NCBI GenBank assembly: GCA_015488535.1
Contig: WFNP01000013.1
Coordinates: forward strand, 1-37,993
Reading direction: 5' to 3'
Length of the DNA stretch: 37,993 bases
From: Nitratifractor sp.
GTDB taxonomy: Bacteria > Campylobacterota > Campylobacteria > Campylobacterales > Sulfurovaceae
Part shown: positions 25,804 through 28,347 of the stretch, in pieces
Numbering within the stretch: the stretch's first letter is position 1
Layout: each line of letters begins with the position of its first letter
The notes under the pieces: model-generated
The model's database searches: none
What the model was told of the DNA's origin: nothing
What the model saw: the letters and a program-made list of their open reading frames with translations, nothing else
Made by a program: the position numbers and the translations under genes

Positions 25804-26376
25804 ATGTCATATTTTCCTGCATATATCAATTTGAAAGATAAAAAGATACTGCTTGTAGGTGGCGGTAATATAGCTACCGAAAAGCTTGAAAAACTGCTTG
25901 ATTTTACTACTGATATCACTGTGTTATCGATAGATTTTACTCCAACAATAGCAGAAATTATAAACAGTAATAATCTTTCTATACTAAAAAAAGAGTATCA
26001 AGAAGGTGATATCAAAGGGTATGATATAGTGGTAGTGGCAACTGATACTATACATTTGCATAAAGAGATATTTCAAGAAAGCAGAGATACCCGCATACTT
26101 GTAAATAGTGTAGATGATACACAATATTGTGATTTTATATTCCCTTCATATATCAAAAGAGGGGATTTGACAATATCATTTTCTACATCTGGAGCATCTC
26201 CTGCATTTGCCAAACATATACGAAGATATTTTGAAGATTTAATTCCTGATAACACCTCTGAATTTTTGAAAAAGATGAAAGATTTGAGAACTGTTTTGCC
26301 AAAAGGAAAAGAGAGAATGAAAAAATTTGATGAGATGGCAAAAAAGTTTATAGAAACCAACTTCAAAAAGAATTGA
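25804..26376 (+). CDS. Siroheme synthase N-terminal-like precorrin-2 dehydrogenase
   Basis: A 190-residue protein matching the Met8p/CysG N-terminal module that oxidises precorrin-2 to sirohydrochlorin with NAD and may insert iron. The Rossmann motif is near the N-terminus (KKILLVGGGNIATEKLEKLL, about 13-32), then VVVATDT, NSVDDTQYCDFIFPSYIKRGDLTISFSTSGASPAFAKHIRRYFE, which includes the catalytic Asp region. The C-terminal uroporphyrinogen methyltransferase of CysG is absent, so a separate CobA/HemD-type partner is needed. It ends 64 bases before the FNR-box operon; siroheme or heme d1 supply would suit nitrite or sulfite reduction. Confidence 0.9.
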   Translation: MSYFPAYINLKDKKILLVGGGNIATEKLEKLLDFTTDITVLSIDFTPTIAEIINSNNLSILKKEYQEGDIKGYDIVVVATDTIHLHKEIFQESRDTRILVNSVDDTQYCDFIFPSYIKRGDLTISFSTSGASPAFAKHIRRYFEDLIPDNTSEFLKKMKDLRTVLPKGKERMKKFDEMAKKFIETNFKKN

Positions 26377-26386
26377 TTTATATCAA
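26373..26386. promoter_or_regulatory. FNR/CRP-type operator, perfect palindrome
   Basis: TTGATTTATATCAA is an exact match to the FNR consensus TTGAT-N4-ATCAA. It lies just after the end of the precorrin-2 dehydrogenase gene. Its centre (26379.5) is 41.5 bases upstream of the transcription start predicted from the -10 at 26409-26414 (about 26421), the standard class II activator position. This is known geometry for FNR/CRP proteins; which regulator binds is inference. Confidence 0.65.
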
Positions 26387-26408
26387 GATAATTTCAGCTT
26401 ATAAGCTC

Positions 26409-26414
26409 TATAAT
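26409..26414 (+). promoter_or_regulatory. -10 element of the 26441-28347 operon
   Basis: Perfect TATAAT, 27 bases before the ATG, downstream of the FNR-type palindrome. AGGAG stands 5 bases before the ATG. Confidence 0.6.
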
Positions 26415-26440
26415 GCACAAAATTTTAAATAGGAGTAAAT

Positions 26441-26782
26441 ATGTCTGATTTACAAAAAGAGAAAATTGAGGTAGCAGGAGCAACAGTTGATTTTTATAAA
26501 TACAATGAAGGTGATGTAGAAGTTTATGAGTTTGATACATCAAGATGTGGTCCGCCAGAACCAATGGTAAATGCTATGGCAGGTCTTAAAATGATAGATG
26601 GAGCAAATAAAAAGCTGGTTATGATAAACCATAAAAAACCTATGGGATTACTCAATAAAATAGGTGAAAATTATAATATCAGTGATGAAACTCTGGAAGA
26701 TGGAAGAGTCAAATTAATCTTTACATACAAAGAGGGTGCGAGTGAAAAAGCCAATCTAAATGATTCAGCCTGTCACGGATAA
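26441..26782 (+). CDS. DUF2249/TusA-fold-like small protein
   Basis: A 113-residue soluble protein. The core (about 26-100) resembles DUF2249 and TusA-type proteins: FDTSRCGPPEPMVNAMAGLK followed by ANKKLVMINHKKPMGLLNKI. TusA carries a sulfur on the cysteine of a Cys-Pro-x-Pro motif, and the present Cys36-Gly-Pro-Pro-Glu-Pro is reminiscent of it, though not identical. The protein ends in Asp-Ser-Ala-Cys-His-Gly, a second Cys/His site. DUF2249 proteins often neighbour denitrification and NO-related genes. It leads an operon with a polytopic membrane protein and a DUF59 protein. A role as sulfur or metal carrier is inference. Confidence 0.75.
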   Translation: MSDLQKEKIEVAGATVDFYKYNEGDVEVYEFDTSRCGPPEPMVNAMAGLKMIDGANKKLVMINHKKPMGLLNKIGENYNISDETLEDGRVKLIFTYKEGASEKANLNDSACHG

Positions 26783-26788
26783 GAGGCT

Positions 26789-28027
26789 ATGTTTTCAGTT
26801 TCAAGGGATTATGCACCTCCATTTACAATGATTGCCCCGTTTTTCATAATCGGGTCAATTTTTTTCTTTGTTGGTAGTATATTTCTACTCTTCTTACACC
26901 CTCAAAATGGTCATTTTGATCCAATGATTGCCGGGTGGATACATTGGTATCTGCTTGGTTTTGTGATGATGATAATATTTGGAGCAATGGCTCAACTTAT
27001 ACCGGTAGTTGTAGAGGTAGGGCATCACTCAGTAGATTTATACTATGTGATATGGCCAATGCTTACAGTAGGGACTCTGCTTATGGTATTGGGATTTTGG
27101 CACTATTCTGCGGTATTACCTTACGGTGGCTTGTTGGTGCTTACTACTATGCTTATATATCTGTATGATACATTGATGACTCTTAAAAAGGCAGAAAATA
27201 TCACTATGACAGTCAAAACTGCCGTAGCTGCCAATCTGTTTTTGACTCTTGGTATCATAGTGGGATTTATTATGACACTGGCAATTGGTGCGGGTGTGAA
27301 TATAGATATATCATGGTGGCTTGATACTCATGCCATGCTTGTATTGATTGGATATGTAACATTGACTATAATGGGATTATCACTTATTCTTTTGCCAATG
27401 TTTGGACTTGCTCACGGATTTGATGAAAAGCCTATAAAAAGAGCTTTTAATTTGACAGTAGCAGGTGTGATACTACATCTATTATCTACTATTACAGGAT
27501 TTGGTTTTGGTAGAGAATTGGCAGTTTTAATGGTAGTAGTGGCTATTGGATATTATCTGTATCAGATATATCTCATTTATAGTGTAAGAGCTAGAAAAGA
27601 GAATGATATATGGGCTAAATCTATGTTTTTTGCCTATACTTCACTTGTGATAGCTTCAATACTCGGTATAGTTTCCATTTTTATAAAAAATGAGCATATA
27701 GTGTTGGCATCAGCATGGTTTATGATAGCCGGATTTATAACATTTTTAATTACCGGACATCTTTATAAAATTATTCCGTTTTTGGTATGGTTTGAGAGAT
27801 ACAGTCCGCTTGTAGGTAAGCAAAGGGTTCCTATGCTTCATGAAATGTATCCCAAAAAGATGGCTGATTGGGAGTTTTATTTTACATCTTTTGGTGTAGT
27901 GATAGCCGGAGTTGGGATACTTTTTGGAATTGATGATTTATATCACGGTGGAGTAGCACTCTTTATAGCCGGTGCAGGTTTTATGCTGTTTAGTGTCAAA
28001 TGGATGCTAAGTTTTGGGAAAAAGTGA
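26789..28027 (+). CDS. Polytopic heme-copper oxidase subunit I-like / NnrS-like membrane protein
   Basis: A 412-residue protein with about 11-12 hydrophobic helices and short loops. Histidines lie in or beside helices: His52 (GWIHWYLLGF), His79-His80, His105, His181 (WWLDTHAMLVLIGY), His209, and His324 (ITGHLYKIIPFLVWFERY). This pattern resembles subunit I of cytochrome oxidases and NnrS proteins, which bind heme, but the full set of copper ligands of oxidases is not evident to me. Annotations for such proteins vary. It begins 6 bases after the DUF2249 gene, with AAGAGG as binding site. It could be a heme-copper protein protecting from NO or acting in respiration. Its function is not established by sequence alone. 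Confidence 0.65.
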   Translation: MFSVSRDYAPPFTMIAPFFIIGSIFFFVGSIFLLFLHPQNGHFDPMIAGWIHWYLLGFVMMIIFGAMAQLIPVVVEVGHHSVDLYYVIWPMLTVGTLLMVLGFWHYSAVLPYGGLLVLTTMLIYLYDTLMTLKKAENITMTVKTAVAANLFLTLGIIVGFIMTLAIGAGVNIDISWWLDTHAMLVLIGYVTLTIMGLSLILLPMFGLAHGFDEKPIKRAFNLTVAGVILHLLSTITGFGFGRELAVLMVVVAIGYYLYQIYLIYSVRARKENDIWAKSMFFAYTSLVIASILGIVSIFIKNEHIVLASAWFMIAGFITFLITGHLYKIIPFLVWFERYSPLVGKQRVPMLHEMYPKKMADWEFYFTSFGVVIAGVGILFGIDDLYHGGVALFIAGAGFMLFSVKWMLSFGKK

Positions 28028-28035
28028 GGTAAAAG

Positions 28036-28347
28036 ATGTGTAATATAACAAAAGAGCAAGTATATGATGCAATCAGTAATGTAATAGATCCGGAAGTTGG
28101 CTTCAATCTTGTAGAGATGGGGTTGATATATGATGCAATTATAGATGATGATTGTAATGTAAAAGTGGTAATGACTCTATCAACCAGAGGTTGCCCACTA
28201 CACCAAATGCTAACTCAATGGGTAAAAGATGCTGTTGAGATGAGAGTAGATGGTGTAAAGAGTGTAGATATAGAAGTGGTTTGGGAGCCGGAGTGGAATA
28301 TCTCAATGGCTGATGATAATGTTAAAAAGGCTCTTGGAGCTTTATAA
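28036..28347 (+). CDS. DUF59/MIP18-type metal-sulfur cluster assembly factor (SufT/PaaD-like)
   Basis: A 103-residue protein of the DUF59 family. The signature DPEVGFNLVEMGLIYDAIID (about 18-37) and the cysteine in TLSTRGCPLHQML (Cys53) are in place, as is VVWEPEWNISM at the C-terminus. Family members help mature iron-sulfur proteins (SufT, human CIAO2) or oxygenases (PaaD). Here it closes the FNR-box operon, 8 bases after the membrane-protein gene, so it may mature a metal cofactor needed by its neighbour. That link is inference. It is smaller than Suf/NifU-type scaffolds and there is no sufBCD nearby. Confidence 0.86.
   Translation: MCNITKEQVYDAISNVIDPEVGFNLVEMGLIYDAIIDDDCNVKVVMTLSTRGCPLHQMLTQWVKDAVEMRVDGVKSVDIEVVWEPEWNISMADDNVKKALGAL

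Follow-up and report, generated by a model that had tools for sequence, protein, structure and literature searches.

A conserved class II promoter geometry upstream of a probable nitrogen-oxide-respiration module with a predicted oxidase-fold membrane protein in Nitratifractor

Organization of the locus

The window analyzed here is a 38-kb stretch of DNA from Nitratifractor sp. (contig WFNP01000013.1; 37,993 nucleotides). It includes a gene for a precorrin-2 dehydrogenase, followed by an Nss/FNR-type operator and by three genes, referred to below as the trio (Table 1). The sequence-only reading of this DNA had described a perfect TTGAT-N4-ATCAA palindrome centred 41.5 bases upstream of the start site predicted from TATAAT, and three tightly spaced genes with gaps of 6 and 8 bases; the coordinates of the box, the hexamer, the start site and the open reading frames all agree with this description. 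Both the +1 position and the -41.5 distance are predictions from the TATAAT hexamer. The met8/CysG-N-type gene ahead of the trio ends within the operator box, which contains its TGA stop codon.

Table 1. Features of the promoter region and the trio
Feature	Position	Strand	Basis
Precorrin-2 dehydrogenase (Met8/CysG N-terminal), upstream neighbour	25804..26376	+	Profile matches; synteny
Nss/FNR-type operator TTGATTTATATCAA	26373..26386	+	Centre 26379.5, -41.5 of predicted start; conserved in relatives
-10 hexamer TATAAT	26409..26414	+	First base 22 bases past box end; predicted +1 at 26421
Ribosome-binding site AGGAG	26431..26435	+	Sequence; AGGAG-like motifs also in relatives
Gene 1, 113-aa DUF2249/TusA-like protein, motif CGPPEPMVNA	26441..26782	+	Sub-threshold DUF2249; TusA-like model
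Gene 2, 412-aa 12-TM protein with predicted heme-copper-oxidase fold	26789..28027	+	Predicted model; conservation
Gene 3, 103-aa DUF59/Fe-S assembly (SufT/PaaD-like) protein	28036..28347	+	PF01883

Conservation of the box and its spacing

An exact TTGATN4ATCAA sequence occurs once in the whole window, as TTGATTTATATCAA, and 15 times in the 1.87-Mb genome, where the reversed pattern does not occur. With up to one mismatch, six boxes are present in the window versus 4.7 expected; this count is near chance within the window alone and would be consistent with a palindrome arisen by chance where the met8-type gene ends. Comparison of 92 non-redundant regions upstream of the DUF2249 gene in Campylobacterota relatives leaves that explanation a negligible probability. 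TTGAYN4RTCAA is present upstream of the first gene in 80 of these regions (versus 0.23 in dinucleotide shuffles), and the strict form of the box in 51 (versus 0.13). Moreover, in 69 of 77 loci a hexamer with at most one mismatch from TATAAT begins exactly 22 bases past the box, compared with 0-1 loci at neighbouring offsets. The genes upstream of the trio vary, including met8, proA and genes for a small membrane protein, a ferredoxin-like protein and cytochromes; conservation of the box behind these different genes indicates that a shared upstream coding sequence is not the explanation, and the chance palindrome was rejected.

In the aligned upstream regions of relatives, column information is high in the two half-sites and the -10 only, and no conserved -35 element was found. 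A box at -41.5 with a fixed -10 and no need for a -35 is the arrangement of class II Crp/Fnr promoters, and this promoter geometry, as read from the aligned sequences, strongly suggests regulation by a Crp/Fnr-type activator. The class II geometry that had been proposed from the single locus thus holds across relatives with differing upstream genes, as does the placement of the palindrome before the trio in Campylobacterota. Diverged trios also occur in genomes that lack the cd1 nitrite reductase NirS; in such Campylobacter-like genomes the trio adjoins ftsZ or purH, and most of the NirS-less diverged trios have a TTGA-N6-TCAA box at the same -41.5 distance or within one base.

Other boxes in the genome and the candidate regulator

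The regulon was surveyed by pattern search only. Sought before respiratory genes, as the sequence-only reading had suggested, the box with the same distance to the -10 is found before napA, a nirDLGH-type gene (contig 77) and an NO-reductase-like operon (contig 34), so that a TTGA-N6-TCAA box is common to nap and nor genes of this genome. The contig 34 operon (L067:5109-7393) encodes a second NO-reductase-like pair of 201 and 560 aa, of the COX1 family, behind its own -41.5 box, and a NorB-like enzyme is encoded besides on contig 56. No box was found in the 12-kb nirS region. On contig 79 (L074:3821-3862), TTGATACTTCTCAA is located 22 bases ahead of a TATAAT upstream of a Rieske/cytochrome bc1 operon, a possible further Nss target. 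A thiol-peroxidase-like gene on contig 81 has an exact TTGATTTAAATCAA box 101.5 bases upstream (L014:3001).

These features resemble the Nss regulon of Wolinella succinogenes (NssA/B/C) and Campylobacter jejuni (NssR), in which a Crp/Fnr regulator with a TTGA-N6-TCAA consensus controls nap and nos genes, although C. jejuni NssR differs in using TTAACnnnnGTTAA. In Nitrosophilus labii, boxes with the Nss consensus TTGA-N6-TCAA start 48-49 bases before the napA, norE and nosB starts (PMC11539149), a placement that agrees with the -41.5 position at the trio. The Nss literature examined does not list the trio among the members of the regulon.

Two Crp/Fnr-type proteins are encoded in the genome. 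One of these is encoded on contig 77, with napA and cobA on either side; its recognition sequence, TPETLSR, matches the E--SR pattern of FNR-like proteins, as in the Nss regulon. The recognition sequence of the other, on contig 20, is without E--SR. Among 30 regulator homolog loci checked, 28 have E--SR (TPETLSR or TPETFSR), the other two having been read in the wrong frame. In some relatives (L165, L170), an Nss-type regulator gene lies directly upstream of the trio. Crp/Fnr family matches are present in 247 of the 298 genomes of the class, and such proteins are so widespread that their co-occurrence with the trio does not discriminate. By its recognition sequence and by analogy with the Nss proteins, the contig 77 protein is likely the activator of the trio.

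The only cysteines of the contig 77 regulator are at positions 84, 94, 221 and 224, and the N-terminal cysteines that hold the [4Fe-4S] cluster of the oxygen sensor FNR are lacking. This makes nitrate, NO or N2O a likelier signal than oxygen, by analogy with Wolinella NssA, NssB and NssC, which respond to nitrate, NO and N2O (PMC6682613). Control by an oxygen-sensing FNR would fit the box, which equals the FNR consensus, and the E--SR recognition helix; against it stand the cysteine positions and a review reporting that FNR orthologs are absent from Campylobacterota (PMC6682613), and it appears very unlikely. Thus, of the oxygen- or NO-responsive, FNR-type control first proposed, the FNR-type recognition stands, whereas the regulator itself is Nss-like and speaks against oxygen. 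Most Nss-type regulators of Sulfurovaceae (L243-L254) differ from the Nss regulon proteins in conserved cysteines of their own, near positions 82, 92 and 218-x2-221, which are absent in other families and may constitute a metal or redox site in the sensor.

The oxidase-fold membrane protein

The structure of the gene 2 protein was predicted by AlphaFold2 with 35 sequences. The resultant model (pLDDT 88.9, pTM 0.89) has 12 helices in the 12-TM subunit I fold of the heme-copper oxidase superfamily. Its best matches among solved structures are all heme-copper oxidase subunits, in agreement with Foldseek; with CcoN (8smr_E), 387 residues are aligned at an rmsd of 3.1 and Z of 35.8, and with NorB, Z is 33.8. 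The likeness to CcoN and NorB extends over nearly the whole chain (Z 32-36). At the sequence level, COX1 profile matches in 4 of 16 gene 2 members stay below threshold (best E 1.2e-4), profile alignment with CcoN and NorB gave nothing significant, and a sequence search against solved structures gave no matches for gene 2 or gene 1. The fold relation thus rests on the predicted structure.

Five His residues are invariant: H52 (TM2), H79 (after TM2), H181 (TM6), H209 (after TM6) and H324 (TM10). When ligand positions were judged by helix and register, only H52 and H181, at the periplasmic ends of TM2 and TM6 as in CcoN and NorB, correspond to the canonical heme-copper set; TM10 has a single His, and the TM7 His pair and the TM10 HxH are missing in 35 of 35 gene 2 sequences and also in the diverged groups. 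Instead, gene 2 has conserved residues of its own (E76, H79, H209 and H324); the conserved His other than H52 and H181, together with a Glu, lie towards the cytoplasmic face, and loop charges place H79 and H209 on that side. Every diverged group keeps H52 and H181, even a paralog on contig 43; this paralog alone lacks H209 and H324, and H79 is restricted to the core gene 2 group. Gene 2 is thus confidently modelled as a heme-copper-oxidase-fold protein without the canonical catalytic metal ligands, and it may hold a metal site of another kind. The 12-helix, His-bearing membrane protein proposed from the sequence is borne out by the model, and so is its heme-copper-like character as regards the fold; the proposal that it contains metal is weakened by the absence of the canonical ligand set.

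NnrS is a 12-TM membrane protein of nitrogen-oxide metabolism that is Crp/Fnr-controlled elsewhere. Gene 2 shares the number of helices but was rejected as an NnrS: none of the 16 members matches PF05940, profile comparison was not significant, and a true NnrS is encoded separately in the genome, on contig 18. It was likewise rejected as a sequence relative of the contig 34 NO-reductase-like enzyme, to which it has no similarity.

The soluble partners

Gene 1 had been assigned to DUF2249. Its own match is sub-threshold (E 0.007), and PF10006 (DUF2249) matches weakly in 7 of 13 members (best E 0.0018) without reaching the gathering score; support for the assignment comes from the predicted model (pLDDT 87.5), whose top three structural matches are all of the TusA family (Z 8.3, 8.0 and 7.2), a modest likeness at Z of about 8. 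Gene 1 has in common with DUF2249 proteins, DrpA and COG4309 (presumably the same family as DUF2249) a PPEP-type motif and a tie to denitrification and NO reductase operons. It differs from them in scoring below the Pfam cut-off, in its greater length, in a C-terminal Cys and in the Cys before the motif; a Cys-Gly precedes the PPEP-like motif in 62 of 76 loci. COG4309 is co-transcribed with norB (PMC1274295).

The assignment of gene 3 to DUF59 is secure (PF01883, FeS_assembly_P; E 7e-16, 58.7 bits versus a gathering score of 23.5). It has this domain in common with SufT and PaaD but is located outside any suf or paa operon and scores below equivalog cut-offs (TIGR02945, E 9.6e-25). Pairing of a membrane protein with a TusA-like soluble protein is also seen in TsuA-TsuB (YeeE-YeeD); unlike the trio, that system has no DUF59 gene, and the likeness is an analogy only, with no claim of a common membrane fold.

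Distribution and association with cd1 nitrite reductase

Gene 2 has full-length relatives throughout the class, and 80 additional named loci also encode one; a Nitratifractor sp. metagenome-assembled genome supplies the nearest (80% identity). When orthologs were defined as full-length matches of at least 280 bits and NirS by its cd1 domain (PF02239), 42 of 298 class genomes have a gene 2 ortholog, and NirS is present in 39 of these 42 versus 7 of the other 256 (Fisher p 5e-38, uncorrected for shared ancestry). A met8-type gene adjoins the trio in many denitrifying relatives, although the box does not need met8, and in relatives the trio often forms part of an island with the order nirC-nirJ-cobA-Nss-nirDLGH-met8-trio-napA. 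In one of the three NirS-less ortholog genomes (G043, L046), gene 2 contains two in-frame stops, which would fit a trio that becomes dispensable once denitrification is lost. The persistence of diverged trios with the box in NirS-less lineages, including Campylobacter-like genomes, indicates that the trio does not work for cd1 nitrite reductase alone.

Proposed role of the trio and alternatives

On balance, a class II Nss-activated promoter probably drives the trio as a conserved module of nitrogen-oxide respiration. By analogy with Wolinella NssA/B/C, the presence of nitrate, NO or N2O would activate an Nss-type Crp/Fnr dimer, which would bind the box at -41.5 and recruit RNA polymerase, switching on the trio together with napA, the nirDLGH-type gene and the NO-reductase-like operon. 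The products would be a TusA/DUF2249-like protein, a 12-helix oxidase-fold membrane protein and a DUF59 Fe-S carrier. The module would most likely sustain nitrogen-oxide respiration during NO production: sulfur, Fe-S or iron centres would be supplied or mended by the soluble carriers, either at gene 2 or by way of it, and gene 2 itself would bind a metal or NO. Maturation, repair or NO handling is favoured because sulfur- and Fe-S-transfer-family proteins are tied to a membrane protein with a normally heme-binding fold, and it is plausible that the trio builds or protects a metal-containing membrane protein, as first proposed. More tentatively, gene 2 may found an oxidase-fold subfamily that has another metal or NO site in place of the heme-copper centre and is fed by the TusA-like and DUF59 carriers, serving nitrogen-oxide-induced maturation, repair or NO handling in Campylobacterota; this fuller proposal is possible but short of probable.

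The association with NirS might also reflect a role of the trio in the metabolism of heme d1 or siroheme that supplies cytochrome cd1, such as transport of heme d1 or a precursor across the membrane. The neighbouring met8, nirDLGH, nirJ and cobA genes and the tetrapyrrole-binding kind of fold in gene 2 are consistent with such a role, and we know of no heme d1 exporter. It is unlikely all the same, as the box-bearing diverged trios of Campylobacter-like genomes occur without NirS, seven NirS genomes have no ortholog, and partners of the DUF59 and TusA-like kinds suggest sulfur or Fe-S chemistry.

Rather less likely is that gene 1 and its partners form a nitrogen-oxide signalling module like Thermus DrpA/DrpB, which would tune the Nss/Dnr regulator: DrpA belongs to DUF2249, depends on the regulator DnrT for its expression and influences nitrate control (PMC6282519), and haloarchaea induce DUF2249 genes during denitrification (PMC11218638), but the trio contains no gene recognisable as DrpB-like, DUF59 proteins are assembly factors elsewhere, and the DUF2249 match of gene 1 is distant. 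That gene 2 is itself a heme-copper-family NO reductase or oxidase, assembled with the help of genes 1 and 3, is improbable: its fold and the sub-threshold COX1 matches would suit such an enzyme, but the TM7 and TM10 ligands are lacking throughout, and of 18 trio genomes checked, 17 encode a NorB-like enzyme of the ordinary type in addition to CcoN, the exception being the fragmented assembly G283; the reductase step is thus already covered.

No published function of the trio was found in a literature search of limited scope, in which only two papers use the name DUF2249. The uncharacterised trio accompanies cd1 nitrite reductase almost constantly in Campylobacterota and is linked here to a specific candidate regulator and to a promoter that can be tested; it is small, is present in culturable relatives and bears on the roles of DUF2249 and DUF59 proteins in denitrification. 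Gene 2 would show reuse of the oxidase fold without its catalytic centre.

Related gene arrangements

In the same genome, contig 43 (L071:5072-7670) carries the gene 2 paralog. Its neighbours encode a hemerythrin, an FmdE-like protein and a second protein of the DUF2249/TusA-like kind, and the group makes up a further module of the oxidase-fold type, one in which the set H79, H209 and H324 is lacking. Downstream of the trio in one family of relatives (L025, L027, L033 and L037) are genes for a small membrane protein and for a protein with DUF1858 plus a weak DUF2249 match; an FmdE-like gene is close by.
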